A stretch of DNA of 57,821 nucleotides from Clostridia bacterium (GTDB lineage Bacteria; Bacillota; Clostridia; Oscillospirales; CAG-272), in contig JAGATW010000119.1 of assembly GCA_017621085.1 (NCBI GenBank), positions 1 to 57,821 on the forward strand, read 5' to 3'. Both the position numbers and the translations under genes were made by a program. Positions 12,938 to 45,200 of the stretch are shown in pieces (position 1 is the stretch's first letter; each line of letters begins with the position of its first letter). The notes under the pieces were generated by a model. It ran no database searches and was not told where the DNA came from. It worked only from the letters and a program-made list of their open reading frames with translations.

Positions 12938-12976
12938 TTCATTACTATACTATATAATTAAGGAGAGAAATTGTAA

Positions 12977-14116: not shown

Positions 14117-14118
14117 TT

Positions 14119-14991: not shown

Positions 14992-15000
14992 GGAGGGCTT

Positions 15001-17157: not shown

Positions 17158-17171
17158 GGAGGTACGCAAAT

Positions 17172-20024: not shown

Positions 20025-20038
20025 GAAGGAGGAGAATT

Positions 20039-21487: not shown

Positions 21488-21500
21488 AGAGGAGGTCAGT

Positions 21501-26892: not shown

Positions 26893-26922
26893 GAATTGTA
26901 AGTGATAAAAAGGAGAAGAAAG

Positions 26923-28155
26923 ATGAAATTAAGTGTAATTATTTGCCTTTACAATACTGAAAAGGAGCATTTTGACAATTGCTTAAACAGTATTTACACA
27001 TCAACACTTAAGGATTTTGAGGTAATAGTAATTGATGATGGGTCAACTATTGATTATGGCGAAATTTTGGAAAAGTACCATCCTGTGTACGTAAAAACCA
27101 ATAATAGAGGACATTTAGCTGCAAGAACATATGGCTTAATGCTTGCAAAGGGTGAGTATGTTGCATATGTTGACTCGGACGATAGCGTAACCTTTAATTA
27201 CCATATGCCAATGGTTGATGTAGCATATGACAAAAATGCAGATATTATTATAAATGACTGGGCGTTTAAGACAGCGTCAACAATTGCAGCCTGTCAAAGC
27301 GACACAACAATATCAACCGACTTGTCATTAGATGGTGATGAAATTTTAAATCAATATGCTAAGCATCAGGGCAGACAGCATTCTTATTTTGTTTTATGGA
27401 ATAAAGTATTCAAAAGGGAGCTTTTGCTAAAGGCTAAAGCTGAAATTGAAAAGACGAATGCTATTATGAACAGAATGACATATTCCGAGGATATGTTAAT
27501 TACTTTTTTTGCATTCAAATTTGCCAAAAAGCTTGAAAATATTCACACAGGGTACTACTTTTATACTGTTCACAATGGTCAAACAATAGTTGCCGATACA
27601 AGCAAAAAAATCAAGGACCAAATCGATATGACAAACACAAGCTTTGATATTATGCTTGAAAACAGTGAAGACAACAAACACGCAAATGAAATTAAAGAAA
27701 ACATATTAGCCTGGAAGACGCTTATGTCAAGAACTCATTACTCCTACGCCAAGGCGCAAGGGGATAAGGAGCTTTGCAGTTACGTAAGGGAAAGATATAA
27801 TGTAGATAAGCTAACTACATCAAAGCCAAAGGATAGCTTTGATTATATTGCATCAAATTTGCTTGGAGATAACTTTGAGGGAATTGATAAAATTTTCAGG
27901 TTTATCTACAAAAAAGGCAAGGACGTGTCTGTAAATTACGATAAAAGCGATGAATATATTGCTAAATGTATAGGCTATCTTGCCCAAAAGGAGAATATTA
28001 GAATTACATTTTCCAAAAACGCTGAAATTACCATTCCAAAAAGGACAAGCTCACTTAAAAACAAGCTTTTCCATAGCAAGCTTGCATATGCAGTTGGACT
28101 AACACTGTTCCCAAAGGGCTCTTCCTTGCGTAAGAAGCTTAAGAACAATCTATAA
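26923..28155 (+). CDS. family 2 glycosyltransferase
   Basis: The product has 410 residues. ATG 26923 is used; the in-frame GTG at 26902 would place the AAGGAG ribosome binding site inside the gene. The GT-A fold starts at once (KLSVIICLYNTE), with IDDGS (37-41) and the metal-binding DSDD (84-87). No transmembrane helix is evident, so it is probably a soluble or peripheral cytoplasmic enzyme that transfers a sugar from a nucleotide donor to a surface polymer or lipid. The C-terminal 150 residues are basic and not recognised. The gene is divergent from the glycosidase operon and has a very strong promoter. Acceptor and donor are unknown. Confidence 0.85.
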   Translation: MKLSVIICLYNTEKEHFDNCLNSIYTSTLKDFEVIVIDDGSTIDYGEILEKYHPVYVKTNNRGHLAARTYGLMLAKGEYVAYVDSDDSVTFNYHMPMVDVAYDKNADIIINDWAFKTASTIAACQSDTTISTDLSLDGDEILNQYAKHQGRQHSYFVLWNKVFKRELLLKAKAEIEKTNAIMNRMTYSEDMLITFFAFKFAKKLENIHTGYYFYTVHNGQTIVADTSKKIKDQIDMTNTSFDIMLENSEDNKHANEIKENILAWKTLMSRTHYSYAKAQGDKELCSYVRERYNVDKLTTSKPKDSFDYIASNLLGDNFEGIDKIFRFIYKKGKDVSVNYDKSDEYIAKCIGYLAQKENIRITFSKNAEITIPKRTSSLKNKLFHSKLAYAVGLTLFPKGSSLRKKLKNNL

Positions 28156-28292: not shown

Positions 28293-31200
28293 ATGGAAAG
28301 AACCAAAAGATTGTTGTCATTGCTAATTTCACTTGTGTTAGTGTTGCTAACCGTGGCAATTATGACAGCTTGTGGTGATGAAGAGGAAAATCCTGCACCG
28401 GGTAACTCATCTACACCACCGACTTCATCAAGCAGTGATAGTGGCAATAACGACAACCAAGACAAACCTGACGATGGAGAGAATAAGCCAGGAGACAGTG
28501 AAGGCAAGAAATTAAGCTATACAGTTAAAATCACTGACAAAAACACAGGCAAGCCTATTCAGGGAGTTAGCGTATTCTTGCAGGAAGAGGCAAGCATGAC
28601 AGCCACTATGTACGCAAGAGGCACAACTGACGAAAATGGCATTGTAGTTTTAAATGCTGAGCCAAAGTATGCAAAGTATGTGTATGTTGAAGGCTTCCCA
28701 AAGGGATATGTTTACGAAAATTTCTATGCGCTTGGTGCAACAGGCGTTGAAATCAAGGTAGGCACTCAAATTATTGAAAATGAGGGTAACTTTGACGGCA
28801 AAACACTCGCTTTAGGCGACGTAATGTACGACTTTACCTTAAATACATTCTCATATGACAAGGAAACAGGAGAATTCGTTTCTAAGGAAATTAAGCTATC
28901 TGAGCTTTTGAAAAATGGCAAAAAGGCTGTTATGCTTAACTTCTGGTACACAACCTGTACTTATTGTATTGAAGAGTTCCCATACATTCAACAGGCATAT
29001 GAGCAATATGGTGAGGATTTAGAGATTATTGCCATTAATGCTTATGGTGATACAGAGGATGATTGTAAGGACTTCTTAGAGACCTTTGCACAGGGTGGCT
29101 ACTATACAGAGGAGTCATGCCCATTAACCTTCCCGTTTGCACTTGATGCACTTGGAATTCAAGATGCATTTGGCTTTACAGTTAACCCATGCTCCGTTAT
29201 GATTGACCGTTATGGAGTTGTTTCTATGGTTCAAATCGGCGGCGTTTTAGGTCCAAGATACTTTACAAATGCCTTTGACCACTACGTAGCAGATGAATAT
29301 GAGCAGGGCTTATATTCATCAATTTATGACCTAACACCTGTACTTAAGCCTGATGTTGAAATGTCAGACGAGAGCGAAATTAAGGATGCAACCGTTATAG
29401 GTGACATTGTTATTTCCTTCAGACCCGAGGATGGTGAGGACGGAGAATATGCTTGGCCATTTGTTGTAAAGGGCGAGGGCGATAACAAATATATTGAAAC
29501 AACAAATATTGACATTGACGGCTCATATGCAATTCTTTACGCGGATGTTGAATTAAAGAAGGGTCAAGCAATTATGTTTGACTATTTCGTATCATCCGAA
29601 AGACTTAACGACGTTTTATTTGTAATCGTAAACGGTAAGGATATTTACACAATTTCCGGAAGACCGCTTGAGGATGATGAAGGAAACTTCTTAGAGAACC
29701 CTTGGCAGGCTTGCTGCCCTTGGGTAGCAGAGGAGGACGACATTTATGAGGTTGCCTTCTGCTATGTTAAGGATGAAAGTGACAAGGATGGTGATGACGT
29801 TGCTCGCCTTGATAACTTCAGAGTTGTGAGCGAGGATGAAATTGAGGTTGAAACCTACATTCCAAGATACGCCGCGCAAGGACTTAAGGATGATAACACA
29901 TTCGAAAAGTATGTAAGCGTTGTATATAACGAAGAGGACGGCTACTACCATGTAGGCGAAAAGGACGGTCCGCTTCTTTTAGCAGGTCTTGTTGATGTTA
30001 ACACACAATTTACCTTAAAAATGGAAGCAGAGGACAGATATACAGTAGTAATAAAGCTTACTAAAGATGAAGAGTTCATCGTAAATGGCGAGGACAAATA
30101 CACTCCTTTCATTATGTATTGTAACTATGCATCTAACGCACAGCCTCATGGCTACTGCCCGGTAACAGAGGAATTAAGAGGCTACCTTGAAGAGTTTGTA
30201 AAGCAAAACGACTTTGTTGTAGATGAAAATTCATGGCTCCAGCTTTGTGCGTACTATGATTCCTATGGTACAGATAAGGAGCTTGAGGACCCAATCAAGG
30301 GACTTTCAACCTTCTCAGCATACGATGCTATTGTAACAGAAGAGGGTGAAGAGGGCTTTAAGAATGTAGTAACCTACACACAAATTCTTATGCCAAGAGG
30401 CAAGTTCTTTAAGTTTGTTCCTACAAAGTCCGGTGTATATCGTATTACATCAAAATCTGCACAAGAGGTTGATGGTTGGATATTTGTAGGCAACCACAAT
30501 CAATGGAACAACGAAAATAACGGTGACAGAATTCTTTATGACGATTCCACAATCGGCGAAAGATACTGTCCGGAATTGCTTATCGACCCGGATGGAGACG
30601 GTAAGTATGAAAGAGACTTGAAAAACTGTTCTATGATATCATACTTTGAAGAGGGTAAGGAATACTACATCGCTATCGGCTACTATGACGTATATGGTGC
30701 AGGCACATTCTCCTTTGATATTAAGTATGTAGGCGAGAAGTTTAACAAATTCGAGGAAGCATCTATCGGTGCATTCACATACGATTTGGAAACTATGGAC
30801 ACAATTACAGGTGGTATTGATGTTAAGCTTTGCGATGACGAAGATGACCCAAGATACGGCTACTACTGTCACTTGCTTCCAAACGGTGAGCTTGGCTCAA
30901 TCCTATATGCAGATTTCCACTATACAACAAATATTTTCCCAACACAATCAATAGCTCAGCTGATTGAAAGCAATGGCTTTAATTTCGGATGGACCGCGAC
31001 CGACCACGAGGCATATGTGTACTTTAAGAACTACTATGAAAAGGACGGTTACGAGGCACTTGAAAAGCTTTGGAAGGGCGACTTTGAGGCAAACTGGGAG
31101 CTTTATCAAATGGACGATATTATAAATGGCATCTATCACGGTAAGGGACCTGACCTAACAGAGGAAGCAAGAAAGTATCTTGATAAGATTGAGGACGGAA

Positions 31201-31583
31201 CCGATGGTGTAAGTGATGAAATCATTTATCCTGAGCGTCAGGGCTGTGTGCCTGTTGATGCAAGACTTGCAGAATTACTCCAAGCATTAATGGATAAATT
31301 CTCATTTGCAGGAATTGACCACTCTTGGACAAAGCTTTGCTACTACTATAAGAGCTTAGAAGCTCCGGATAGTGTTGAAGAAAAGCTTGCAAAGCTTGAA
31401 GCAATGATAGAAAATGCTTATTCTTCTGCTGAAGATGTTCCGGCTGAAATAACCGCAATATGTGATGAGCTTGAGGCGTTATTGGAAAATTGGACAATTG
31501 AACAGGTTAAGAAAAATCTTATTGATGAAGCAATGAAAGCAATCTATGAGATTATCGAAACTGACGCACAGAAAAATGGCTAA
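28293..31583 (+). CDS. large lipoprotein with TlpA-like thioredoxin domain
   Basis: The product has 1096 residues. A signal sequence with lipobox MTAC (Cys27) is followed by a Ser/Pro/Asp linker to about 75. An Ig-like domain (YTVKITDKNTGKPIQGVSVFL) covers about 75-165. The TlpA/ResA-type thioredoxin domain lies at about 170-340, with the redox pair Cys222-Thr-Tyr-Cys225 in NFWYTTCTYC and a cis-Pro region (VNPCSVMID). Beyond it are a jelly-roll-like segment and two copies of a domain with the pattern NEEDGYYH...DGPL, also seen in the next gene. An Asp-rich loop (DPDGDGKYERD) may bind calcium. It should work outside the membrane as a thiol-disulfide exchanger linked to a large binding scaffold. 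The likely electron donor is the TlpA-polyferredoxin at 36282. Confidence 0.8.
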   Translation: MERTKRLLSLLISLVLVLLTVAIMTACGDEEENPAPGNSSTPPTSSSSDSGNNDNQDKPDDGENKPGDSEGKKLSYTVKITDKNTGKPIQGVSVFLQEEASMTATMYARGTTDENGIVVLNAEPKYAKYVYVEGFPKGYVYENFYALGATGVEIKVGTQIIENEGNFDGKTLALGDVMYDFTLNTFSYDKETGEFVSKEIKLSELLKNGKKAVMLNFWYTTCTYCIEEFPYIQQAYEQYGEDLEIIAINAYGDTEDDCKDFLETFAQGGYYTEESCPLTFPFALDALGIQDAFGFTVNPCSVMIDRYGVVSMVQIGGVLGPRYFTNAFDHYVADEYEQGLYSSIYDLTPVLKPDVEMSDESEIKDATVIGDIVISFRPEDGEDGEYAWPFVVKGEGDNKYIETTNIDIDGSYAILYADVELKKGQAIMFDYFVSSERLNDVLFVIVNGKDIYTISGRPLEDDEGNFLENPWQACCPWVAEEDDIYEVAFCYVKDESDKDGDDVARLDNFRVVSEDEIEVETYIPRYAAQGLKDDNTFEKYVSVVYNEEDGYYHVGEKDGPLLLAGLVDVNTQFTLKMEAEDRYTVVIKLTKDEEFIVNGEDKYTPFIMYCNYASNAQPHGYCPVTEELRGYLEEFVKQNDFVVDENSWLQLCAYYDSYGTDKELEDPIKGLSTFSAYDAIVTEEGEEGFKNVVTYTQILMPRGKFFKFVPTKSGVYRITSKSAQEVDGWIFVGNHNQWNNENNGDRILYDDSTIGERYCPELLIDPDGDGKYERDLKNCSMISYFEEGKEYYIAIGYYDVYGAGTFSFDIKYVGEKFNKFEEASIGAFTYDLETMDTITGGIDVKLCDDEDDPRYGYYCHLLPNGELGSILYADFHYTTNIFPTQSIAQLIESNGFNFGWTATDHEAYVYFKNYYEKDGYEALEKLWKGDFEANWELYQMDDIINGIYHGKGPDLTEEARKYLDKIEDGTDGVSDEIIYPERQGCVPVDARLAELLQALMDKFSFAGIDHSWTKLCYYYKSLEAPDSVEEKLAKLEAMIENAYSSAEDVPAEITAICDELEALLENWTIEQVKKNLIDEAMKAIYEIIETDAQKNG

Positions 31584-31588
31584 ATGTA

Positions 31589-31617
31589 TATGCGGTAAGG
31601 TAAGCCCTTACCGCATA
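31589..31617 (+). other. intergenic hairpin between two lipoprotein genes
   Basis: TATGCGGTAAGG (31589-31600) pairs with CCTTACCGCATA (31606-31617), a perfect 12-bp stem with a 5-nt loop. No T-run follows (TTGCTTAC), so it may be a partial terminator or an mRNA processing/stability element that tunes the downstream gene. Confidence 0.55.
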
Positions 31618-31645
31618 TTGCTTACTAAACAAAATGGAGAATGCT

Positions 31646-33322
31646 ATGAAAAATTTATTTAAAGCAATAGCAATTTTATGCTTAATATTGGGAGTTATAT
31701 TTACAGTATGCTCCTGTGGTGAAGAAGAAACACCTGAGCCAACACCATCTAACCCTGAATCATCCACATCATCTTCTACCACCGATTCAAAGGTAGAGGA
31801 CAATGAGGGTAGTGGCGATAAAGAACCCGAAATGGTTGATTACAAGGTAATGGTAGTTGATGCCTTTGGAAATAATATAAGCGCAGTTGTTGAAATGTTT
31901 ATGAATGGCGAAAGCTTAGGCGAAATGCCAACAAGACAGGGCGTTGCTACCTTTAAGCAGGAAAAGGGAGATTATACCTTTGAAATTGAGCCGTTACAGG
32001 GCGAGTATTACTATGATGTAAACGAGTGTGTATTAAGTAGTGATGTAACAGAAAAAACAATTTCACTTTATGCCTATGCAGATAGCTCAAATAAGCAAGA
32101 AATATGGGTGTACGACGAAACAATTGAGGATCATGTTCCTTACGAAGCAGTCAGCATTTCAGAGGGGGGAGTGTATGTAAATATAGACCGTCCGGAATTT
32201 ACATATTTCATTTTTACCCCAACACGTGGCGGTATTTACAGATTTAGCTGTGTTTCCGAAAAGAAGGTAACCTTTGGCTATTACGGCTCACCGCATAATG
32301 TTTTAAAGGATTGTCCGATAGACGTTGGCGAGGACGCATCCTTTGAAATTGAAATTAAGGACGGTAGTGTAGCTATTGGAAATCAAGGAGGTACATCACA
32401 GTTTGTTTTAGGCGTTCGCACCTTTGCTACTAAGAACTGCGTCATTAAAATTGAACGTATTGGAAATGCAACGGTTGAAATGCCATGGACAGATGTTCAC
32501 GCAAATAAAAATGAAACCAAAAAGGACAACTACCTAAATAGCGAATTTGTAGATTTTGATGTTACCAATCCTGATTTAAAGGTTGTATTTAATGAAAATG
32601 ATGGCTATTACCATCTTAATACAGCTGACGGGCCACTTGTTTATATAAGAATTTCAACAGCTGTTATTAAAGGAATAATCGTTGAGGGCGACGCACAGTA
32701 CACAGAGTATAAGTATTTGGCACCGTTTACAGTAATGTGTGAAACCGGCAGACTTGGAAAATTATACTATGACGATAACGGAAAGATAATTTTAAAGGAA
32801 TGCTATAACGAAATGTTTAAGGAATATGCTGAGCTTTGTGGAACAAAGGGTGTATATCCTTTAAATAAGCAGCTTGAAGAGGCAATTAAGAATATAGGTG
32901 ATCATGAGGGTTGGTTTGACCTTGATAGTGAAACGAACCTTTGCTTTAAGGATGATACTTCAAATGTTGTTATAGAAAATGCTTGGCTGTTTGCTTGCTG
33001 TTATGAAAACAAGCAGGCTATTGGCACTACCGAAAAGCCTGCACCAATCACCCCAAGCGCACAAGACAGTATTGCAACCGAGGCAATTTTTGTAACAAAG
33101 GGCGAGGAGGTAACCCTAAGAACCCTTACAAAGGCAAAATTAACAGTTAAAAACCCGGAAGGTGTTAAGATTATTGCAAACGACGGTACAGAGTATACGG
33201 TTGACACAGAAACCGGTAAGCTTGAAGTAATAATCAAGGCAGAGCAAAACTTTGTAATTGTTTACGAGGGTGACGAGGAGCAAACAGATGTTCGCTTTAC
33301 CTTTGTTGAGCATTTTGAATAA
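31646..33322 (+). CDS. lipoprotein with shared DGYYH domain, no thioredoxin module
   Basis: The product has 558 residues from ATG 31646; the upstream in-frame ATG at 31634 overlaps the likely GGAG ribosome binding site. The lipobox is VCSC (Cys24), then a Ser/Thr/Glu linker, then an Ig-like domain (YKVMVVDAFGNNISAVVEMFM). The mid part has a PPC-like beta domain (IFTPTRGGIYRFSC) and then the domain NENDGYYHL...DGPLVYIR, matching the one in the preceding protein. The C-terminus is another beta domain. It has no CXXC pair and no catalytic motif I can name. It is 62 nt downstream of the TlpA-lipoprotein gene, probably partly cotranscribed through the hairpin at 31589. It is extracellular; the role is unknown, perhaps ligand binding. 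Confidence 0.75.
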   Translation: MKNLFKAIAILCLILGVIFTVCSCGEEETPEPTPSNPESSTSSSTTDSKVEDNEGSGDKEPEMVDYKVMVVDAFGNNISAVVEMFMNGESLGEMPTRQGVATFKQEKGDYTFEIEPLQGEYYYDVNECVLSSDVTEKTISLYAYADSSNKQEIWVYDETIEDHVPYEAVSISEGGVYVNIDRPEFTYFIFTPTRGGIYRFSCVSEKKVTFGYYGSPHNVLKDCPIDVGEDASFEIEIKDGSVAIGNQGGTSQFVLGVRTFATKNCVIKIERIGNATVEMPWTDVHANKNETKKDNYLNSEFVDFDVTNPDLKVVFNENDGYYHLNTADGPLVYIRISTAVIKGIIVEGDAQYTEYKYLAPFTVMCETGRLGKLYYDDNGKIILKECYNEMFKEYAELCGTKGVYPLNKQLEEAIKNIGDHEGWFDLDSETNLCFKDDTSNVVIENAWLFACCYENKQAIGTTEKPAPITPSAQDSIATEAIFVTKGEEVTLRTLTKAKLTVKNPEGVKIIANDGTEYTVDTETGKLEVIIKAEQNFVIVYEGDEEQTDVRFTFVEHFE

Positions 33323-33328
33323 GAATAA

Positions 33329-33364
33329 AAATATTGCGGAAAAGTCCTTCCGCAATATTTTTTT
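33329..33364 (+). terminator. terminator after the second lipoprotein gene
   Basis: A 13-bp stem AAATATTGCGGAA (33329-33341) with TTCCGCAATATTT (33348-33360) and a T-run, 6 nt after the stop. Confidence 0.88.
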
Positions 33365-33376
33365 AGTGTGAACGTA

Positions 33377-33405
33377 TTGCAATACAGCTAAATAAATGTT
33401 ATAAT
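33377..33405 (+). promoter_or_regulatory. promoter of the third lipoprotein gene
   Basis: TTGCAA (33377-33382), a 17-bp spacer and TATAAT (33400-33405). Confidence 0.68.
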
Positions 33406-33480
33406 ATATACGTATAATTGTGTGGCTTGAAAAACGATTTTAATAAATGCTTACAGCCATTCAAATTTTAGGAGGAATTT

Positions 33481-36210
33481 ATGAAAAATTTAAAAAGAAT
33501 TGCACTAATAATAGCTGCTACTCTTGCAATTATTAGTATGGTTGTGCTAATGTCAGCTTGTGGTGAGGACGAAAATGAGCCAACTCCACCTACATCATCA
33601 AGCAGTACATCAGGTACAACAGATAATTCAAAGCCTGATGATTCATCAAAGCCTGACGAAAAGGACGAGTTAGAGGAAAATCCTAACCTTGTAAGAGTAA
33701 ATGTTGTTGATGAAAAGGGCAAGCCTGTAAACGGCGCAACTGTTCAAATTTGCCAAGGTGAGCTATGCTTTGCAAAGCCAATTAAAACAGGCGCTGACGG
33801 TAAGGGTACAAGAGAATATACACTTGACGGTACAGCCCTTAAGGCAAAGGTACTTAAGATTGACGGTATGACAGACTATCTTACCCCGGGCGAGCTTGGT
33901 TATATCTATTTTGATGCAGGCTCACGTGAAATTACAATTAAAATCAAAAAGGTAACCGTAAATGTATTTGACACAGACGGTAAGGCAGTTGAGGGTGCTG
34001 TTGTTCAGCTATCTCAGGGCGAGCATATCTTAGGTGCAAATACAGAGCTTGTTACTGATGCTGATGGTGTAGCATCCGGCTTTGTTGCTTTAAGTGGTGA
34101 GGAAATTTTTGCTAAGGTTACCGAAATTCTAAGTGGTGGCAGCTATGAGCTTGAGGATGAAAGCTATGGCTTTGGTATTGGCACTTATGACGGTACAGTA
34201 ACAGTAAAAAAGCTTTTAGCTTATGTAGTTAAAATCTCCACAATGCTTGGGGAAAATCTCTCAGACGTAAAGGTTCAGCTTTTCGACTCCAAAAACAGAA
34301 TGAGAAAGACCCTAACAACTGACGAAAACGGTGTTGCAAGATTTGAAAATGTTGACCCTGATGATTACTATGTAAAGGTTACAACTAACGACCCAAGATA
34401 TGTCATAATTACAGAAAATACCGATGGTAAATATTATTTCAAAGAAGGCTCAACCACACTTAATTTAGATGCAGTGGTTGTAACGGATATTACATATACA
34501 ATAACTGTATCAAACGCTCTTGCAGGTCAAACCGTAAAGCTTTACAACTATGATAGTGAGCTTGTTGCATTTGGCAAAACTGATGAAAACGGTGTTGCAA
34601 GCATTGTAGCTCCTTATGGCGAATATATCGCAGTTCTTGATAGTGAATATTTTGCAGAATATATAGAGCTTTCAGGTGAAAAGCTAAGTGGCGAAATTAC
34701 AGTAACTAATGAAATTGCCGGCTCAACTGAATACTGGCCAAAATATATTTTTGACACAGAAAATTTAAGCTTTGAAGCAAATAGCGAATACGTTTGGTAT
34801 GAGATTGTTAACTATCAGGGCAAGCTTGTTGTTATTGAAAAAATTTCAGGTGATTACGCTTATGGCTATAACTTTACAGGTTATCTCGGCACTGATTTTG
34901 AAACAATTGTTCTTGAAGAAACGGGACTTTTCAATATAGGTCCATATCAAAATAGCGCAGAGCTTACAGTAACAGTTAAGGTGCCCGGTACACATTCAAG
35001 CCCAATTGATATTACAGAAAATTCAAGCGTTGATGTATCAATTAAGGAAAATCACACCACATACTATACCTATACAGCTTTAGAAAATGGTGTTTTAAAA
35101 ATAACAGTTGACAAAAATGTTATAATCTCCTTTGAGGGCGTAGGTCAAGGACTTAAATATGATGACCAAGACAAGGTAACATATATTTACCCACTATGTA
35201 AGGATGAGAGCGTTATAATAGGCGTTAGCTCCTATGATGAGGACACAAATTCATCAGTAGCTCTTGATACAACCTTAAATGTAGCATATGGCAAGGAAAA
35301 TAAGAGCTACACAGTAAAGGTTCTTAAAGAGGGTGAATTATCCGAGGGTACAGTTGTAATTCTTTACACAAAGGTAAATGGCGAATTAACCGAGATTGCA
35401 AGAGGCACAACTAACGCAAACGGCGAATACGTGTTTGAAAGCATAGACTATGCAAGCAACTATGTAGTAAAGGTTGAATATCCGGAGGGATATACTTCCG
35501 TATATGAAGAGGTTGAATTTGGCACAGAGCTTAATGCAAATGTGTATATGACAACAATTAAAACAGGTAGCGTTGACCTTCCATTTGATTTTGATACAAT
35601 AGGTGGCGAGGAAAGCACAACCGTTAACGCAGGCTCTACTGTTTGGTACACAGTTAATGTTCGTCCAAGCAATGATGGAACAAAGTTTACACTTACAGTA
35701 AATAGTGCAAGCGTTGTAATTAAGGTATATTACACCGACACAAATGATGATGGCATAATTGATGAAAATGACACACCGGTAGGCACATCAACAGTTGTTG
35801 ACGGAAAGACAGTATACACCTTTAATTCAAATGACAGAGTATATAAAATCGCAGTTTCTACTACAAATAGCGAGGCAGAGGATGTTACATTAACCTATGC
35901 GTCTAAGTCAACTCAAGAGGGTGAAACAGTAGATAATGCTATTGAAATCACAGAGGCTGGTGAATACAAGGCAAGCCTTAATAATTCTTGCCTATATTAC
36001 AGATACACAGGCGAGGCTGCAACTCTTACAGTAACAGTTACAAGCGATAACGGAACTCTTAAAACAGTAACGCTTTCCATAGACGCTGACCCTGTTATAG
36101 AAGCGGTGGACGGTAACACCTTTACCGTTGAAACAGAGGGCAACTGGATTTACTTTGCAATTGAATCCAGCGCACAAGCAGAGGTTACCTTCACAGTAAC
36201 AGTTGAATAA
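33481..36210 (+). CDS. multi-domain Ig/SpaA-like lipoprotein
   Basis: The product has 909 residues. The lipobox is MSAC (Cys27), with a Ser/Asp/Lys-rich linker to about 75. Then come repeated Ig-like beta-sandwiches of the SpaA/Cna-B or carboxypeptidase-regulatory type: VRVNVVDEKGKPVNGATVQICQGE, VNVFDTDGKAVEGAVVQLSQGE, VKVQLFDSKNRMRKTLTTDENGVARFENV, and another near 640. They alternate with PPC-like domains (SSVDVSIKENHTTYYTYTALENG; STVWYTVNVRP). An EF-type loop DTNDDGIIDEND near 760 may bind calcium. No enzyme motif is seen. It is an extracellular stalk or binding protein with its own promoter and terminator. Its linker and first Ig domain resemble those of the two upstream lipoproteins. Confidence 0.75.
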   Translation: MKNLKRIALIIAATLAIISMVVLMSACGEDENEPTPPTSSSSTSGTTDNSKPDDSSKPDEKDELEENPNLVRVNVVDEKGKPVNGATVQICQGELCFAKPIKTGADGKGTREYTLDGTALKAKVLKIDGMTDYLTPGELGYIYFDAGSREITIKIKKVTVNVFDTDGKAVEGAVVQLSQGEHILGANTELVTDADGVASGFVALSGEEIFAKVTEILSGGSYELEDESYGFGIGTYDGTVTVKKLLAYVVKISTMLGENLSDVKVQLFDSKNRMRKTLTTDENGVARFENVDPDDYYVKVTTNDPRYVIITENTDGKYYFKEGSTTLNLDAVVVTDITYTITVSNALAGQTVKLYNYDSELVAFGKTDENGVASIVAPYGEYIAVLDSEYFAEYIELSGEKLSGEITVTNEIAGSTEYWPKYIFDTENLSFEANSEYVWYEIVNYQGKLVVIEKISGDYAYGYNFTGYLGTDFETIVLEETGLFNIGPYQNSAELTVTVKVPGTHSSPIDITENSSVDVSIKENHTTYYTYTALENGVLKITVDKNVIISFEGVGQGLKYDDQDKVTYIYPLCKDESVIIGVSSYDEDTNSSVALDTTLNVAYGKENKSYTVKVLKEGELSEGTVVILYTKVNGELTEIARGTTNANGEYVFESIDYASNYVVKVEYPEGYTSVYEEVEFGTELNANVYMTTIKTGSVDLPFDFDTIGGEESTTVNAGSTVWYTVNVRPSNDGTKFTLTVNSASVVIKVYYTDTNDDGIIDENDTPVGTSTVVDGKTVYTFNSNDRVYKIAVSTTNSEAEDVTLTYASKSTQEGETVDNAIEITEAGEYKASLNNSCLYYRYTGEAATLTVTVTSDNGTLKTVTLSIDADPVIEAVDGNTFTVETEGNWIYFAIESSAQAEVTFTVTVE

Positions 36211-36214
36211 TAGC

Positions 36215-36245
36215 AAAGGAGCTGACTTTTGAGTCAGCTCCTTTA
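36215..36245 (+). terminator. terminator of the third lipoprotein gene
   Basis: AAAGGAGCTGACT (36215-36227) pairs with AGTCAGCTCCTTT (36232-36244), a perfect 13-bp stem just after the stop. The T-run is short (TTTATT). Confidence 0.75.
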
Positions 36246-36247
36246 TT

Positions 36248-36280
36248 AAAAAGGACTTTCAAAACGAAAGCCCTTTTTTG
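36248..36280 (-). terminator. terminator of the polyferredoxin operon
   Basis: AAAAAGGACTTTC (36248-36260) and GAAAGCCCTTTTT (36266-36278) pair fully only on the minus strand, where the odd position is a G-U wobble; on the plus strand it is an A-C mismatch. This assigns it to the minus-strand operon. Confidence 0.75.
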
Positions 36281-36281
36281 T

Positions 36282-37892
36282 TTAATTCTTTGCTAATTCC
36301 GTGTCAATTATGTCTTTGAGTGAATTATAGTTCATTGATGCCTTAATTGAAGCAATAATTACACCGTTTCCATCAAGAATAATTGTAATCGGGTAGGAAT
36401 CTCCACCGCCGAGCATCTTAAAGTAGGTTTCATCAGCAAACTCATCGTTTTCGTCTAAGGAGGTGTCCTTAACAAAAATCATATCTGAGTCCTTATAATG
36501 TGTATTTACATAATCAGAAGCGGTATTGAAATCTCTGTGTGTATGTACAGCAACAACTGTTACCGTGTCCTTATATTCTGTTGCAATAGTGTCAAAGTAT
36601 GGTAATTCCTCAATACATCCGCCACACCAAGTGCCCCAGAAGTTAATAACTGTAATTTTACCCTTGTTGTTAGCAGGATTAAAGGTAGTGCCTGTTTTTC
36701 CGTTTTCATCAAAAACTTCCATTTCATAGCCATAACAGGTGTTACCAACCTTGTTGCCAAGCTCTGGAGCATTGTCATCAATTGGTGGCTGGTCTGGTGT
36801 AGGTGGAAGCTGTGGCTCGCTCACCTTGTTAATAACATTGTAGTAAATCAGCGCAAAGGCTAATAGTCCTATCATCAATGCAGAAACAACGATTTTTAGA
36901 ACCTTGTTGCGCTTTTTGATTTTTTCGTTACGCGCCAAAAATTCCTCTCTTTGCTTATTAGCAAGGAAAACGTCATTTTCAGAGCTGTTTTCATCAATAA
37001 CAATAGGATTTTCAATTTCATTTGGTGGCAAAATAAATTTAGAGCCCTTCCAAGAAATTGCATTAGTTGGACAAACCTCAATACATTCACCACAGTTAAT
37101 ACATTCGTGGTCGTTAACGTGACGAATGTCAACCTTACATTTGCTAACACAAAGTCCACAATCGGTACACTTGTTCTTTTCAAGCTTAATGCCAAATACA
37201 CTAAAGTGATTGAAAAGACCGTAAATAGCACCAAGTGGGCAAAGGAAACGACAGAATAATCTGAAGATAAATATAGAGCCAACAACAATGCTTACAAGTA
37301 AAAGGAATTTCCAAGTAAACAAAGGACCAAGACGAGCAAGCTCACTTTCATTTACCTTGTTTGAAAGAAGTCCTAAAGCGCCCTCAAGCGTGCCTGCCGG
37401 ACATATGTACTTACAAAATGCAGGAATTGCTCTGTCCTTGAATGCATAAAGCACAGGAACAATAACTACAAAAAACACTAAAATGACATATTTTAAGTAA
37501 GATAAAATCTTAGTAACCTTATTTTTCTTTAGCTTTGGCGTTTTAATCTTGTATAAAAGCTCTTGAATAAGTCCAAAGGGACAAAGAAAGCCACAAATAA
37601 AGCGACCAAAAAGCAAGCCATAAAGTAAAAGAATACCAATAACATAAAAAGGTACGGTTTTTTGACTGGCACCTAAGGCATTTTGCAAAGCCCCTAAGGG
37701 ACAAGCACCAACAGCACCGGGACAGGAATAGCAGTTAATACCCGGGGCGCATATATTCTTTGTTGGACCCTTGTAAATTTTTCCGTTAAAGAAGCCCTGT
37801 AAATTTGCATTAAACAAAAGAGCAGCATAAAGCTGAATCAGCTTTCTCTTAGAAGGGAGAAGGCTTTTTAATTTACTAAATACTTTTTTCAT
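36282..37892 (-). CDS. NapH-like polyferredoxin fused to an extracellular TlpA thioredoxin domain
   Basis: The product has 536 residues from ATG 37892, which is 2 nt after the preceding stop; ATG 37913 lies inside the upstream gene and lacks a ribosome site. Residues 48-220 hold the membrane part with four Cys-Pro clusters typical of NapH/YccM proteins (CYSCPGAVGACP, CGFLCPFG, CKYICPAG, CRFLCPLG). Residues 242-274 hold two 4Fe-4S ferredoxin motifs (CTDCGLCVSKC, CINCGECIEVCP). A last helix (333-352) leads to a Pro-rich linker and a TlpA/ResA domain with Cys423-Gly-Gly-Cys426 in FWGTWCGGC. Electrons from a cytoplasmic donor could thus cross the membrane to an extracellular thiol pair. The fusion is directly visible; direction of flow is inferred. 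Confidence 0.87.
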   Translation of the reverse strand: MKKVFSKLKSLLPSKRKLIQLYAALLFNANLQGFFNGKIYKGPTKNICAPGINCYSCPGAVGACPLGALQNALGASQKTVPFYVIGILLLYGLLFGRFICGFLCPFGLIQELLYKIKTPKLKKNKVTKILSYLKYVILVFFVVIVPVLYAFKDRAIPAFCKYICPAGTLEGALGLLSNKVNESELARLGPLFTWKFLLLVSIVVGSIFIFRLFCRFLCPLGAIYGLFNHFSVFGIKLEKNKCTDCGLCVSKCKVDIRHVNDHECINCGECIEVCPTNAISWKGSKFILPPNEIENPIVIDENSSENDVFLANKQREEFLARNEKIKKRNKVLKIVVSALMIGLLAFALIYYNVINKVSEPQLPPTPDQPPIDDNAPELGNKVGNTCYGYEMEVFDENGKTGTTFNPANNKGKITVINFWGTWCGGCIEELPYFDTIATEYKDTVTVVAVHTHRDFNTASDYVNTHYKDSDMIFVKDTSLDENDEFADETYFKMLGGGDSYPITIILDGNGVIIASIKASMNYNSLKDIIDTELAKN

Positions 37893-37894
37893 AA

Positions 37895-38734
37895 TCAACC
37901 CATCCCTATACATTCAGTACAAATATTAATTGCCTTTGTAAGCACATCGCCCATGCCACCGTTTAAAACGCCTAAAACGATAAATGTAATTGCAAGACAA
38001 GCAACAACCAACTTTATAATAATGCCTAAAACCTTATGCCATTTCTTAGGTGAGGAGGCATTCCTGTAGCTTTGCATCATGTTTTGTGAAAGCTTAGTAA
38101 ATGTGCCAAGCTGGGTATTTTCAGCCACTCCCTCGTTAATTTTAGCATTTTTAAGCTCGCTTTTAACAATTTCAAGCTCCTTTTTAATGCTAAACTTACA
38201 TACATAAGCAGTAACTATCAAATATACAACAGGGACAATGAAATATCTGAGAATAGAAAGACATCCCTTTATCATTTCACCGTTAATATCAGTCTTTGAT
38301 GCATCAAAGCTATTAAGCACAGAAACGAATGAAACAACAGACGCAGTCACAACCAATAAAATGCTAATTACAACCATAACTAAACGTAAAATGCGTTGCT
38401 TTTCTATTTTTGCACATCCGTCCCTGCTAACCTTATTAAGACGTGAGCTTAAGTTGTGTAAAACCAAGGCATCATTAACCTTGCCCTTGGTTTTTTTCTC
38501 CAACGGAGAAACAATACTTAAAACAGCACCAAGCACTACAAAGCAAATAAGCACATAAACAAAAACTGCTATTTTTGAAAAATGCTCACTAACGCTTTCT
38601 CTTGTAAATGGAGAGGGACCGGTTTTGTAAATGTCAACGCACATAACAATAAACAAAACGCCAACAACACACAAAAGAATGCTTATGATAATGCCATAAA
38701 TCAAATTAATCTTTTTTAATGTTTTTTCTGACAT
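37895..38734 (-). CDS. five-helix membrane protein ending in a CD1871A-like CXXC tail
   Basis: The product has 279 residues, with about five transmembrane helices (near 9-35, 50-72, 112-135, 152-172 and 240-262). The tail NGGMGDVLTKAINICTECIGMG ends the protein 7 residues after its first Cys. This ending resembles the short CD1871A-family CXXC proteins of Clostridia, in which a single helix precedes an ICxECIGxG end. With a positively charged N-terminus inside and an odd helix count, the CTEC pair would face outside, like the TlpA domain encoded by the next gene. It is the first gene of a two-gene operon, 2 nt from the polyferredoxin gene. A role as membrane thiol carrier is inferred; the first four helices are not recognised. 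Confidence 0.7.
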   Translation of the reverse strand: MSEKTLKKINLIYGIIISILLCVVGVLFIVMCVDIYKTGPSPFTRESVSEHFSKIAVFVYVLICFVVLGAVLSIVSPLEKKTKGKVNDALVLHNLSSRLNKVSRDGCAKIEKQRILRLVMVVISILLVVTASVVSFVSVLNSFDASKTDINGEMIKGCLSILRYFIVPVVYLIVTAYVCKFSIKKELEIVKSELKNAKINEGVAENTQLGTFTKLSQNMMQSYRNASSPKKWHKVLGIIIKLVVACLAITFIVLGVLNGGMGDVLTKAINICTECIGMG

Positions 38735-39201: not shown

Positions 39202-42200
39202 ATGAAAAGAAACGGAATCGTAAGATTAGCAGTTGCAACGGTGTCAGTATTACTGCTAATCGCCATGATGCTCTCTATTTGTACATCGGCTCTCGGTGTG
39301 TCCTCATCTGCGCCAACGTACATTAATGAGTATAATGGAAATCTGAAAACAAACATCGAACAATTTTTTAACAACAAGGTGGTACAAAAGCTACCAAGCA
39401 CTGTTAAAAACACAGATACTATATCTGTAATTGTCGATCTTGACTTGCCGGCCATTATGGACGCATATGACTGGACAGGTTCTAATTTAACAATGGCTGA
39501 GTATGCTTCAACAAATGAAGCTAAGGCACTTATGAGTGAGGCTTTAAAGGAGAAGACAAATATTCTTAAAAAGCTTGACGAAAAGGGAGTTAAATATACT
39601 CAAGGTGCTAACTACTCAACAATCTTTAGCGGCTTTGAAATTTTAATTCAAGCCTGTGACTTTGATGTAGCCTGTGATGCAATCGGCACAAAGGCAACAA
39701 TAATGGTTGGCGAGGTTTATAAGCCTGCTGACTCAAAGCTTGTAGAAAATGACGTTAACTTCTACGAGGACACAGGTATTTTTAATAGCGCTGACTTTAA
39801 ATATCAAGGTCAGGGTATGGTAGTAGCAGTTCTTGACACGGGTCTTGACTACACACATACAGCATTTCTTGATAGTAACTTTACAGCAGATAGAGCAAAG
39901 CTTGGCTTAACAAAGAAAATGGTTGCCGACCTTTTACTCGCTAAGGACACTCGTGCTGAATTCTATATGCAGGGTGTTACTGCTGATGACCTATATGTCA
40001 GTGACAAGGTTCCGTTTGCGTTTGACTATGCTGATGGTGATGCTGACGTTTATTCCTTGCACAACAACCACGGTACACACGTATCAGGTGTTATTGCAGG
40101 TAAGGATAGCGTTATTACGGGTGTAGCACCACAGGCGCAAATCGTTTCAATGAAAACCTTCTCCGACGTTGAGGAATCTGCACGCACATCTTGGATTCTT
40201 TCTGCCCTTGAGGACTGTGTGCTTTTAGGCGTTGATGTTATTAACATGTCACTTGGTACAGCCTGTGGCTTCAGCCGTGAAAGCGATAGGGAAGCAATCA
40301 ATGGTAACGTATATCAAAAGATAAGAGATGCAGGGATTAGCTTAGTTGTTGCAGCATCAAACAGCTACAACTCAGCATATGGCTCTGATAAGAATGGTAA
40401 CTTGGGTCTTACATCTAACCCTGATACATCAACAGTAGGCTCACCTTCCACATACGAGGGCGCTATGTCTGTTGCATCTATTGATGGTAAAAAGACTCCT
40501 TACATTCTATATAATGACGCAATTATTTACTTCATCGAGGCAACAAACGCATCAAGCAAGGAAAAGGACTTCTTTGCTGAGGTATTAAAGGACAAAATAC
40601 CGGAGGACTCAAACGAGGCTATTGAGCTTGAATACGTAGTTGTTCCCGGTGCCGGCCGTCCCGCAGACTACCGTGGTTTAGACGTAAACGGCAAAATTGC
40701 ATTAGTACGCCGTGGCTCCACAACCTTCGAGGAAAAGGCACAGGCAGCACAAAAGGCAGGAGCTTCCGCTATCATCATTTATAACAACGTGTCCGGTGAT
40801 ATCAAAATGAACGCAGGTACAATCACAATTCCTATCTGTTCAATTTCACAGGACGATGGTGAATTATTAGCTGCAAGCGCAACCGGTAAAATTAAAATCA
40901 GCCGTGCGCAAACATCCGGTCCTTTCATTTCAGACTTCTCATCCTGGGGTCCTGCTCCTGACTTAAGCATTAAGCCGGAAATTACAGCACACGGTGGTAA
41001 CATCCTTTCTGCTGTAACAGGTGGTGACTATGACCGTTTGTCCGGTACATCAATGGCATGTCCTAATATGTCCGGTGTAATTGCACTTTTACGTCAATAC
41101 GTAACAAATGAATACGACAGTATAAAGAATATGCCCGAGGGCGCTGAAAAGTCCAAGGCAACAAATGCACTTGTTAACTGCCTCTTAATGTCAACTGCTG
41201 ATATTATGAGAAACAAGAGCGACCTACCATATGCTGTAAGAAAGCAGGGCGCAGGTCTTGCAAACCTTGTAAAGGCATCAACAACCACAGCTTACATCCA
41301 AACCTATGATAGAAACGACGGCTCCGTTATGGACAAGGCAAAAATTGAGCTTGGTGATGATATAGAAAAAACAGGTGTTTACACACTTAAGTTCGCAATC
41401 AATAACTTTGGCACAACAGCTCTTACATATGACCTGACAGCTCAGGTATTAACCGAGGGTGTTAGTGAAACAGAAACAGTTCGTGGCGAAACAACCGTAA
41501 CTGAAGAGGGCTATATCTTAAATGGTGCTAAATTCGAGGTAATTAAGGTTACAAATGGTACAAATAACGGCAACTCCGTAAGTGTAAACGGTGGCAATGT
41601 TGCAGTTGTAGAGGCTAAGATAACTCTTTCCGATGCAGATAAGAAGTATCTTGACGAGTCCTTTGAAAATGGTATGTACGTTGAGGGCTTTGTATGCTTA
41701 AAGGCTACAAGCGGTACAACAATTGACCTAAGCGTTCCATTCCTTGCATTCTATGGTGACTGGACAAAATCACCTATGTTTGACACAGATTACTTTGAAA
41801 CAAATAAGGATGAGCTTGATGATGGTATTTCACAGGACGATAAGGTAATGGCTGATGCTTATGCTACACGTCCAATCGGTGGTCTTTACTCCGACTACGT
41901 AAGCTATCTTGGCTCATACTACTTCCAGCAAAATCCAAATGATAAGGTTATTGCTGCAAGCAGAGATTTTATTGCACTTTCTTATGCTGATGAAACAGTT
42001 CACTCCTTCCGTTTCGTTTGGGCAGGTATTTTAAGAAATGCTGCTAAGATTGTAGTAACAATCACAAACGATGCAACAGGCGAGGTTATATTTGAAACTG
42101 TAGATTACGACATTCGTAAATCCTATGGTGACGGTGGTTCAATCTACCCGGCAAATATCGATGTTGAATTTGATACACAGGACTTTGACTTGCCAAACAA

Positions 42201-45200
42201 TGCACAATTAAGCGTTAAGCTTGAGGGCTACCTTGATTATGATAACGACGGCAAGGAAACAAACCTTAAAAACACATTCGAGTTCCCAATCGTAATTGAC
42301 TATCAAGCTCCAACCGTTACAGATTGTGAGTTCTACACAGAATACGATAAGGACCTAAAGAAGAATAGACTATTTGCAAGAGTTGGTGTTTACGATAACC
42401 ATTACGCAATGGCACTTAACTTCGGTTATGTAAGAGAAGCAACAGATGAAGAGTACCAAAAGGACGGCTACAAGCACTTAATGGAATCCTTTGAAAGCTA
42501 CTTAACACCTGTATATTCAACCTTTAATAATACAACATACGTTGAATACGAGCTTACAGATTATATCTACACACTTAAGGAAAAATCCAAAAATCCAAAC
42601 TCATTTGTTGTAACCTGTTATGACTATGCGCTTAATATGACAACCTATGAAATCGGCTTGCCGGATGAATACGTTGACTTCTACTTTGAGGAATCAAAGA
42701 ACGAAACAAACTACCTAAGTGTAAACCAAGTATATCAGCTAAAGCCTCTCCTTTATCCAAATGCTGAAACAAATCCGGACGCAACAGATAATCCATGGGC
42801 TGAGCTTGTTACATTTAACTCCACAAGACCAAAGGTTGCAAAGATTGTAAACGACAAAATTGTTGCTCTTAGCCCGGGTGTTACCTACATTCAGGCAAAG
42901 GACGCAAATGGTCACGTGGCGCAATTCCACGTAACAGTATTAGGTAGTGAGGCAAAGGACAATCCGGTTCTTTCCCCATACTACAAGGAATATGATAAGC
43001 CGGTAGCTGACGAATTTGACGTAATAGGCTATAAGACCTTAAAGGCATTCTTCTATCTCAACAATGACGAAAGAGATATAGGCGCAACAAACGACCTAAA
43101 GCTATTTGAAGGTGGCTTTGACCTAAAGATGTTCCCATCTGAGTCAGTTGAATTGAGAACAAAATTCACACCGTATCTTGACTCAGCAAAAATAGCATAC
43201 CAATCCAATAATACAAATATTGTAGAAATTGATGAAAATGGTGTTGTAACAGCTAAGGAAGAGGGCTATGCATCTGTAACAGTAAGAGTTCTCATTGACG
43301 GAGAAAGAACCTTCTTCTCAGAAACAATAAATGTTGAGGTTAAAAATCCTTGGATAAGAACAGGTCCATCACTTACCCACTACTTTGGTAATGGTGGAGT
43401 AGTAACAATCCCATCTAACCTAAATCTTACAGAGGTTGGCGCTTACTCATTCTCAAACTTCGACTATGTAGAGAAGGATGAAAATGATGAAATCTCCGAG
43501 GAAGACCCAAATCTTACAAAGCAACAATTCCTTGGTGAAAATACAATAACAAAGGTAATCATTCCTATTGGTATTGAAAAAATCGGTCCATATGCATTTG
43601 CAGGACTAACAGCCCTTGAGGAGGTTGTAATTCCATATACACTTGAGGCAATTGAATATGGCGCGTTCTTAGGCTGTAAGAACTTAAGAACAATATCCTA
43701 CATGGATGAAAAAGGAAATGTAATACCTTCCGTTGGCTTAAAGAATGTTAAGCTTATCAATATGGGCGCATTCCAAGGCTGTAACTTAAGAGGCGAGCTT
43801 GTTCTTGACAATGCACGTGCAATAGGTGACTATGCATTTGCAGACAATCAAACTCTTTCCTCAGTAGTAATTCCAAAAACACTTCAGTCCATTGGTGGAT
43901 ATGCATTCTTTGGAAACAAGTCACTTACAAACGTAACAGTTCACGCTGAGCTTGTTAAGTACGGTCCATATGTATTTGCAGGCTGTTCAAAGCTAAGCTC
44001 AATGACAACACTCAATAGTGATGATGAGCCAATAGGCACAATTAACACAGCAGTAATTCCACAGGGCGCATTCTATGGCTGTGAAAGACTTACAAGCGTA
44101 ACCGTTGGTAAGGACGTAAACGTAATTGGTGAGTACGCATTTGCAAACTCCGGCGTTAAGAGATTTATTGTAGCTGAGGGTAGCTTAGCATTTAAGCCAC
44201 AAAACCAAGCTTACATTTTATCAAACGATGGCTCTGAGCTTGTTGTAGTAGCTCCAACTGTTGAAGGCAAGTTCGAGTTAAGTGGAGTTACCTCAGTTGG
44301 CATAGGCGCATTTGCTGAAAACAGAAAGCTTACAGAAATTAAGCTACCAAATGTTACTAAGGTTGGTAAATACGCATTTGCTGAATGTAGCAGGCTTCAA
44401 ACCATTACCCTTGGTAAGCTTACAGTAATTGATGAGTACTCCTTCTTTGGCACACCAATTAAGACACACCCATCATTTGAAAATGTTACATATATCGCTC
44501 CATACGCATTCTCAAATACAAGTCTTGAAAGCGTTGTAATTCCAAATGGCGTAACCGTTGGAGAGGGCGCATTCTGTGAGTGCGATAAGCTTGCAAGCGT
44601 AGTTATTGGCGATAACGTAGTGCTTGAAATGGGTGCATTTATGTACAACAACAGAATCGGTGGCAGATGGCAGCTATTATACTATGTAAAGAATAATCAG
44701 CGTCATTACTACTATGATTATATTTCACCACTTAAGTCACTTACAATTGGTGACAATGCTGTAATCGGTGAATCTGCATTTATGGGTGCTTCAGACTTAG
44801 AGTCTGTAACCCTTGGCGAAAACATTGTAATTGGCGACCAAGCCTTCTATAATGCTTGCTCACTTAAAGTCATTCTTGATAAAAACGGTAACAACGTTGG
44901 CTTTAAGAATGTTGTATCAATTGGCGAGCGCGCATTTACAGGTGATGAGCAATTTGTATTTACAAACTCATTTACAAGCTTCGATGAGGCAAACCAAATG
45001 ATAGTTGATGGTGCTTATGTATATCACTACTATGGTGCTGCATTTGAGGAAATTGATTTAACTAATGTTGAAACAATAGGAATGGGCGCATTTGCATACT
45101 GTACACAGCTTGTAAGCCTTAATGTAGGCGCACACAAGGATATTCCTGAGCTTGCATTCTACGGCTGTGAAAAGCTTGAAAGCGTTAACCTTGAAAATGT

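Follow-up and report, generated by a model that had tools for sequence, protein, structure and literature searches.

The textbook routes by which exported thiols are kept reduced, DsbD and CcdA, use cysteine pairs and cytoplasmic thioredoxin. The CcdA/DsbD proteins (PF02683), together with partners of the TlpA, ResA or Etrx type, bring cytoplasmic reducing power to TlpA-like thiols on the outside of the membrane; the soluble ferredoxin:thioredoxin reductase uses a [4Fe-4S] cluster to reduce the disulfide of its thioredoxin-type partner, one electron at a time in two steps. The ccdA-eTrx-msrAB loci of Fusobacterium are a described example of CcdA with an exported thioredoxin (PMC12288474). According to the main text of Meheust et al. 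(2021, eLife, PMC8238504), flavinylated systems with NapH-like proteins of the PF12801 group are proposed to carry electrons across the membrane via iron-sulfur (Fe-S) clusters to extracytoplasmic FMN domains. Here we describe a locus that would join NapH-like electron conduits to CcdA-like thiol relays. It lies at positions 28293-38734 of a 57,821-nucleotide stretch of DNA from Clostridia bacterium (assembly GCA_017621085.1, contig JAGATW010000119.1, positions 1-57,821; this whole stretch is referred to as the window) and contains five open reading frames (ORFs), all of them present there: a NapH-type Fe-S membrane protein fused to a TlpA domain (NapH-TlpA), a membrane protein ending in a CTEC motif (the CTEC protein) and three lipoproteins (LP1, LP2 and LP3).

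Like the CcdA/DsbD systems, the pair formed by NapH-TlpA and the CTEC protein would deliver cytoplasmic reducing power to TlpA-like thiols outside, but here a membrane protein with ferredoxin-type Fe-S motifs, paired with a CxxC-tailed protein, would be the carrier, and the window's genome has no PF02683 match. With the flavinylated systems, as presented in the main text of PMC8238504, it shares a NapH-like PF12801 membrane protein bearing an extracytoplasmic terminal domain; it differs from them in that this domain is TlpA (thiol) and not FMN-binding, and in having an extra outer four-cysteine site and a partner of the CD1871A family. The word TlpA does not occur in the main text of that paper. 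Escherichia coli NapH, a ferredoxin-type component of the periplasmic nitrate reductase system, aligns with the window protein at the CX3CP pairs C100/C104 and C214/C218 and at the eight ferredoxin cysteines but, unlike it, lacks C54, C57, C64 and C164 and has no TlpA fusion. Ferredoxin:thioredoxin reductase may serve as a chemical analogy for the proposed relay; its Pfam family is absent among the matches of the window scan.

We propose, with a rough probability of 0.7, that the pair is a membrane Fe-S-to-thiol reductant relay, which would do by iron-sulfur chemistry the job that CcdA and DsbD do by thiol exchange. Cytoplasmic electrons, perhaps donated by ferredoxin, would first reach the pair of ferredoxin-type clusters in the NapH-like protein and move on to an inner-face cluster (C100/C104/C214/C218), and from there to one at the outer face of the membrane (C54/C57/C64/C164). 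The outer-face cluster would then reduce the CxxC-tail disulfide of the CTEC protein, anchored beside NapH, and the tail in turn would reduce the NapH-fused TlpA domain, from which reducing power would reach other exported TlpA-domain lipoproteins, LP1 included, and through them exported proteins. This reading is supported by the linkage of the cassette, the outer cysteine site, the predicted topology, the complementary distribution with CcdA, the TlpA domain and its TGA-bearing relatives, the fold and co-inheritance. The features of the pair are as follows:

37895-38734, minus strand: CTEC protein, 279 amino acids (aa), five predicted transmembrane helices.
37898-38011, minus strand: CD1871A_fam domain (CTEC residues 242-279; NF040920 match) with the CxxC tail, Cys272/Cys275.
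36282-37892, minus strand: NapH-type Fe-S membrane protein with a C-terminal, predicted extracytoplasmic TlpA domain, 536 aa (Pfam Fer4_5, Fer4, Redoxin).
37701-37733, minus strand: C54-xx-C57-x6-C64, three residues of the predicted outer four-cysteine site (alignment).
37401-37403, minus strand: C164 in C160-xxx-C164-P, fourth residue of the predicted outer site (alignment).
37581-37595, minus strand: C100-xxx-C104-P, half of the predicted inner four-cysteine site (alignment with E. coli NapH and controls).
37239-37253, minus strand: C214-xxx-C218-P, other half of the predicted inner site (alignment).
37071-37169, minus strand: two ferredoxin-type [4Fe-4S] motifs, C242-C274, predicted to be cytoplasmic (Pfam Fer4/Fer4_7; net-positive segment).
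36615-36626, minus strand: TlpA active site of NapH-TlpA, Cys423-x-x-Cys426 (conserved).

In Pfam, NapH-TlpA carries three Fer4_5 matches, ferredoxin-type Fer4 matches and a Redoxin/AhpC-TSA (TlpA) domain. It fits the NapH-like PF12801 group (Fer4_5 above cut-off, two CX3CP motifs, two ferredoxin motifs) and scores 81.2 bits against the NapH/MauN model TIGR02163, below the cut-off of 213.05. The Redoxin and AhpC-TSA matches of the TlpA domains in the window are above the Pfam cut-offs; the narrower NCBIfam models ResA, StoA and TlpA are not reached by these domains. A search for FMN-binding domains, confined to the window proteins scanned, gave no match among them or in NapH-TlpA at E 0.05. 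The longest ORF of the gene begins at 37913, and close orthologues (L025, L030, L031 and L032; L and G numbers are our handles for loci and genomes) start at the codon of ATG 37892. With this start the TlpA cysteines are numbered Cys423/Cys426, and the gene begins 2 nt past the CTEC stop codon, a spacing from which we infer that the two genes are cotranscribed. A preliminary description, made from the letters of the window alone, had named a NapH-type polyferredoxin fused to a TlpA domain with Cys423/Cys426, a five-helix protein ending in CTEC, and the convergence of this pair on the lipoprotein genes; the Pfam domains and the orthologue-based start bear out the first, the five hydrophobic segments and the C-terminus ICTECIGMG the second, and the 71 bp that separate the convergent ORF ends the third.

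The description can be taken further, since the CTEC tail belongs to a named family. The last 38 residues of the protein score 39.5 bits, against a cut-off of 32, with the NCBIfam model NF040920, whose name is 'CD1871A family CXXC motif-containing protein'; no Pfam family is above cut-off for the CTEC protein. The usual form of this family across our phylum survey is short, often 43-60 aa, with one hydrophobic segment. The window protein, with its 279 aa and five helices, is longer than this usual microprotein, and departs from what is an observed form and not a rule of the model. In the plasmid annotation of Peptoclostridium acidaminophilum (EAL2_808p), a CD1871A gene immediately precedes one for a 4Fe-4S binding protein, and a TlpA gene is close by.

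The pairing of the two genes is conserved among relatives. In the window's family (35 genomes, G000-G034, of which G000 is the window's own; 23 further genomes of the order were also used), NapH-TlpA is found at E < 1e-90 in 18 genomes, and the CTEC gene adjoins it in all 18. The NapH Fe-S cysteines and Cys272/Cys275 of the CTEC protein are conserved in 18/18 family orthologues, and Cys423/Cys426 in all 19 aligned rows, namely the 18 family proteins and a TlpA lipoprotein of the window's own genome (L143). Four of the NapH proteins (G005, G006, G017 and G027) have a tandem pair of TlpA domains. A second set of 80 named loci, mostly from metagenome-assembled genomes of gut Clostridia, was fetched with the peptide patterns PG[IL]NCYSC or ECI[SN]CG[ED]C; of 576 relatives confirmed in this way the best 80 were kept, and some of these seem to duplicate assemblies of the family set (e.g. 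L157 and G025). NapH and TlpA share one ORF in 78 of these loci and are neighbouring genes in the other two (L223, L236). A CD1871A tail lies beside NapH in 79/80, the exception being L193, where NapH starts at the contig edge. The tail proteins range from 46 to 357 aa, 77 of the 79 being longer than 100 aa and the other two 46 and 56 aa. The linkage that the preliminary description had proposed to look for among genomes is thus conserved, and the pairing of CTEC with NapH-TlpA is more than chance.

The CD1871A model has matches in 54 of 398 Bacillota genomes (the window's own among them), 44 of them above cut-off, and we read up to about 12 kb (less at contig ends) around each of the other 53 loci. 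A NapH-type gene is near CD1871A on the same strand in 53/53, 49 of them recognised by ORF and hidden Markov model and four by tblastn. The two genes mostly overlap or lie a few tens of bases apart, the widest spacings being about 2.1 kb (L096) and 0.8 kb (L117). Low-scoring matches of the CLSCIGI type were considered as false positives and rejected as such; they too lie near NapH genes and are therefore kept in all counts. A TlpA-like gene was recognised in 45 of the 53 loci, with a CxxC motif in 27 and an in-frame TGA at the first active-site cysteine in 18. Five of the loci with a cysteine TlpA (L075, L076, L091, L095 and L118) were missed by ORF calling and found by profile within the DNA read around CD1871A. 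The window thus holds the fused form of a widespread CD1871A/NapH/TlpA cassette, in which TlpA is a separate gene in most phylum loci, a point beyond the preliminary description. At two loci a 125-aa protein is encoded just downstream of NapH (L070, 4605-4982, minus strand; L077, 4483-4860, minus strand); that of L070 is desulfoferrodoxin-like by eye only, and may hint at a role in oxidative stress.

The cysteines of the NapH proteins fall into a general and a specific group. C100/C104/C214/C218 and the eight ferredoxin cysteines are common to E. coli NapH and nearly all NapH-like controls. C54, C57, C64 and C164 are all present in the 49/49 aligned phylum NapH proteins linked to CD1871A, and the full set occurs in 0/35 evaluable NapH-like proteins without CD1871A. 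These 49 were fetched via CD1871A alone, so that no pattern bias affects them; the alignment omits the four NapH genes that tblastn alone detected. The controls comprise E. coli NapH, six order proteins from genomes without a CD1871A match (E. coli also has none) and 28 phylum PF12801 loci, the latter drawn from the 30 best-scoring matches after L245 (a 117-aa fragment) and L262 were left out. L262 is the CD1871A-linked locus of genome G201, and was the only one of these PF12801 loci with the outer site and the only one with CD1871A within about 3 kb. Single positions of the outer site do occur in controls, with a cysteine at C64 in seven, at C57 in one (L239) and at C164 in none. The site is also present in 80/80 named NapH proteins, a count that for C54 and C57 is partly by construction because the fetch patterns contain these residues. 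In these alignments the outer four-cysteine site marks the CD1871A-linked NapH subfamily, and each set of four cysteines would bind a [4Fe-4S] cluster.

So strict a coupling between the CxxC tail and the outer site would also be expected if the CTEC protein were a structural partner, its cysteines serving to bind metal, or to form a structural tail by which the outer Fe-S site of NapH is completed or stabilised, with TlpA reduced directly by that site. The position of the CTEC motif at the extreme, hydrophobic C-terminus fits such a role as well. We consider this unlikely: the four invariant outer cysteines of NapH itself suffice for one cluster, and a CxxC motif next to a thioredoxin-like partner is what a redox pair normally looks like, although neither argument is decisive.

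The relay requires that the ferredoxin part and the TlpA domain lie on opposite sides of the membrane. Mean net charges over the 18 orthologues are +8.1 for the N-terminal region of NapH, +5.6 for loop 1, -0.3 for loop 2, +5.3 for the ferredoxin region and -18.7 for TlpA; for the CTEC protein they are +2.0 for the N-terminus, -0.5, +5.9, -1.7 and +3.7 for the successive loops and -0.6 for the tail. By the positive-inside rule, this distribution predicts an inside location for the ferredoxin region and an outside one for TlpA and for the CTEC tail. The extracellular TlpA of the preliminary description agrees with this prediction, and a cytoplasmic TlpA is disfavoured. The NapH topology requires a crossing near residues 17-36 that is short and not clear-cut; without it, the strongly positive N-terminal region would break the positive-inside rule. 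Either way, the C54-C64 loop is parted from the ferredoxin part by three crossings (79-97, 133-150 and 188-208), and the predicted topology gathers C54/C57/C64/C164 at the outside of the membrane and C100/C104/C214/C218 at the inside. AlphaFold2 models NapH-TlpA well (pLDDT 87.9). In Foldseek, its TlpA domain matches ResA, Etrx1, CcmG and TlpA, thioredoxin/TlpA/ResA-type chains being among the best 50 of 1214 matches. Sequence comparison found no solved structure for the NapH membrane domain, the 49 matches (E up to 0.1) peaking within residues 218-291.

The 18 TGA-bearing loci of the phylum survey (L070, L077, L078, L079, L081, L083, L084, L087-L090, L092-L094, L096, L097, L099 and L101), many of whose TlpA-like genes are of the type FFSPGUxxC, probably encode selenoproteins with selenocysteine at the first active-site cysteine position. 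A pattern-based search for TGA covered 23 of the 53 loci; a repeat with a TlpA profile covered all 53 and added no further TGA locus, although it missed four of the known ones (L081, L088, L090 and L101) and one cysteine locus (L074) in which the CxxC is visible. When TGA is translated as U, five of the genes score as AhpC-TSA/Redoxin, four of them above both Pfam cut-offs and the fifth (L077) above that of Redoxin only. A match to tRNA-Sec above 64 bits is present in 18/18 genomes with TGA versus 16/35 others (Fisher p 4e-5), the 64-bit line having been set post hoc, since at the E-value cut of the search all 53 genomes match, partly via other tRNAs. Folding of the 48 nt from the TGA is weak (mean z -0.73 over the 18, mononucleotide shuffles). 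About 20 nt downstream of the TGA, 15 of the 18 have TGCAGTTGC with flanking complementary bases, a near-identical inverted repeat. We take this TGCAGTTGC stretch to resemble a bacterial SECIS element, of which the z-score of -0.73 is no proof. TlpA/redoxin-type selenoproteins with UxxC are listed in a selenoproteome review (PMC13188914), in the main text of which the terms '4Fe-4S' and 'NapH' are absent.

The distribution of CcdA/DsbD points in the same direction. PF02683 (DsbD_TM) has no match in 35/35 family genomes, nor in six window proteins or in the window's own genome, which is 65% complete; descent of the window system from CcdA was considered and rejected on this ground. PF02683 is found in 8/23 other order genomes, with a TlpA match less than 400 bp away in 8/8, and none of these eight has a CD1871A match. 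In the phylum, it is present in 15/53 CD1871A genomes versus 252/344 others (the window's genome left out; Fisher p 5e-10, uncorrected for relatedness). It would thus appear that the CcdA/DsbD and CD1871A routes tend not to occur together, although some genomes have both. The proposed direction of transfer is reductive because CcdA is replaced, because the TlpA domain is of a type with a ResA/Etrx1 fold, and because of the probable selenocysteine. The chain could also run in reverse, in the manner of DsbB or VKOR, with TlpA oxidising exported thiols and NapH passing the electrons inwards to ferredoxin or quinone. NapH-like proteins are described, in the main text of PMC8238504, as passing electrons to reductases or from oxidases, and the many conserved cysteines of LP1 and of the divergent S8 subtilase described below could form disulfides. 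We nevertheless regard an oxidative chain as very improbable, as the complementary distribution with the reductive CcdA, the ResA/Etrx1-type fold and the probable active-site selenocysteine are all better explained by a reductase.

The identity of the proteins served by the relay is a separate matter, for which the neighbouring genes provide candidates:

28293-31583, plus strand: LP1, large lipoprotein with a TlpA domain (28815-29243; Cys222/Cys225), plausible recipient (Pfam, cysteine conservation, co-inheritance).
31634-33322, plus strand: LP2, lipoprotein with stretches in common with LP1 (Pfam scan at E 0.05: no match).
33481-36210, plus strand: LP3, lipoprotein with Ig-like/prealbumin-like repeats (Pfam; Cys91 and Cys96 conserved).
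39202-46617, plus strand: S8 subtilase with leucine-rich repeats (LRR), divergent neighbour of the CTEC gene, possible client (Pfam Peptidase_S8, LRR_5).
26902-28155, plus strand: family 2 glycosyltransferase travelling with the LP1-LP3 block, near LP1 also at L148, L150 and L153 (block away from NapH).

Each of the three lipoproteins has, by eye, a signal peptide with a lipobox-like cysteine. The TlpA domain that the preliminary description had assigned to LP1 is recognised by AhpC-TSA at 1.5e-11, and its Cys222/Cys225 CxxC is kept in 17/17 sequences; a further six cysteines (474, 610, 622, 652, 985 and 1016) are kept in at least 16 of the 17 or 18 aligned. The kinship claimed for the three lipoproteins holds for LP1 and LP2, LP1 matching LP2 genes over about residues 525-726, but is limited in LP3, which matches LP1 only in its N-terminal ~135 residues, the remainder being bMG3, SpaA and carboxypeptidase-regulatory-like domains. 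LP2 Cys455 is conserved in 18/18, and LP3 Cys91 and Cys96 in 11/11. A small additional TlpA lipoprotein-like ORF (about 270-390 aa) is seen near LP1 at L028, L034, L148, L150, L153 and L154, directly before LP1 in four of them.

LP1 is found at E < 1e-100 in all 18 family genomes with NapH-TlpA and in one other, G023 (Fisher p 4e-9 for co-occurrence with NapH, uncorrected for relatedness). In 12 of the 18, the LP block and NapH share a ~20 kb stretch; in G001, G002, G005, G006, G027 and G032 the block is on a separate contig or at a distance of more than 15 kb. Farther afield, 20 of the 55 evaluable named loci (those of the 80 with at least 5 kb downstream) have an LP1 relative no more than about 10 kb from NapH, aligned over at least 500 residues and with identity down to 24%; in 19 of these 20 it is on the strand opposite to NapH. 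The co-inheritance with NapH-TlpA, the linkage in distant loci and the conserved extra cysteines make LP1 a plausible recipient of reducing power from NapH-TlpA. The S8 subtilase gene (2471 aa, with a PA domain, a long BspA-type LRR array and 24 cysteines, many of them conserved in relatives) is divergent beyond CTEC in 18/18, cut by a contig edge in G006. Its N-terminal part is matched at E < 1e-60 in those same 18 genomes; elsewhere it matches a 640-aa frame of G015 (1e-88) and the distant order genomes G047 and G053 (3e-53).

It is possible, though we think it doubtful, that the relay is real but serves other clients, either in spore assembly (as for StoA) or through a secreted folding factor, and that LP1-LP3 and the S8 subtilase are neighbours in an island of surface proteins. 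The window's own genome encodes at least three further exported TlpA-domain proteins, among them a 224-aa lipoprotein with ~84-85% identity between its TlpA and the one in NapH-TlpA, a 165-aa lipoprotein, and a 567-aa lipoprotein (G000:C67, L143, 2667-4370, plus strand) that combines an FKBP/trigger-factor-like part with a TlpA domain and could be a secreted chaperone coupled to the thiol relay. The six genomes in which the LP block is outside the ~20 kb around NapH would fit these other clients as well, as would the presence of Spo0A in 32/35 family genomes. However, a link of NapH to sporulation was tested and rejected, as Spo0A does not track NapH in the family, and LP1 tracks NapH-TlpA in all 18 genomes, unlinked cases included, and relatives of LP1 recur near NapH in the 20 distant loci. 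For the relay feeding the lipoproteins, as the preliminary description had it, the outcome is divided: a transmembrane reductant relay appears well supported by linkage, topology, cysteines, CcdA complementarity and the probable selenocysteine, and the lipoproteins gain as recipients from near-perfect co-inheritance, distant linkage and conserved cysteines, while the transfer of electrons to them is left by sequence comparison as a proposal.

Several observations weigh against the Fe-S-to-thiol relay. The domains, the linkage, the cysteine sites with their coupling, the CcdA complementarity and the TGA codons of relatives can be read from the sequences, but cluster binding, the order of transfer, its reductive direction, the clients and electron flow itself are what we infer from them. 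Our family and phylum counts are uncorrected for relatedness, and the window's own genome is incomplete, as noted above. TlpA was not recognised in 8/53 phylum loci within the ~12 kb read, PF02683 coexists with CD1871A in 15 of the 53 genomes, and in G043 the CD1871A microprotein is on a different contig from the NapH gene, which is followed by a TlpA gene. G023 has LP1 without NapH, and 16/35 family genomes have neither a strong NapH or LP1 match nor DsbD_TM, so that no such route seems essential there, though several of these genomes are incomplete. Lastly, the AlphaFold2 model of the CTEC protein is poor (pLDDT 67.2).

A bolder form of the relay proposal would see a four-cluster Fe-S wire, made up of the two ferredoxin clusters, one inner-face cluster and an outer-face one unique to this NapH subfamily, with a CxxC microprotein anchored in the membrane as its substrate; this would amount to a ferredoxin:thioredoxin reductase embedded in the membrane and to a third transmembrane chemistry of thiol reduction, replacing CcdA in many anaerobic Bacillota and feeding TlpA proteins with cysteine or selenocysteine; to this we would give even odds. 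The relay is likely an alternative to the CcdA/DsbD route in gut Clostridia, and apparently an undescribed one: no paper describing a NapH-TlpA/polyferredoxin set was found among those listed by searches of the open-access literature, nor any on 'CD1871A'. The main text of a 2026 paper on the C. difficile 4Fe-4S binding protein CD17960 (PMC13260099) contains neither TlpA nor thioredoxin. If the proposal is correct, strict anaerobes could spend reduced ferredoxin on the quality control of exported proteins, and TlpA reduction would be explained in many Bacillota that have no CcdA. It would also give a function to an uncharacterised family of CxxC microproteins and to a NapH subfamily, and define a directly testable Fe-S/thiol interface at the outer face of the membrane.

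Elsewhere in the window, positions 9884-22541 (plus strand) hold a run of genes for ABC-type solute-binding proteins and permeases, together with genes for a DUF5696 protein and a Yip1/NHL/TPR protein, perhaps a locus for glycan uptake.

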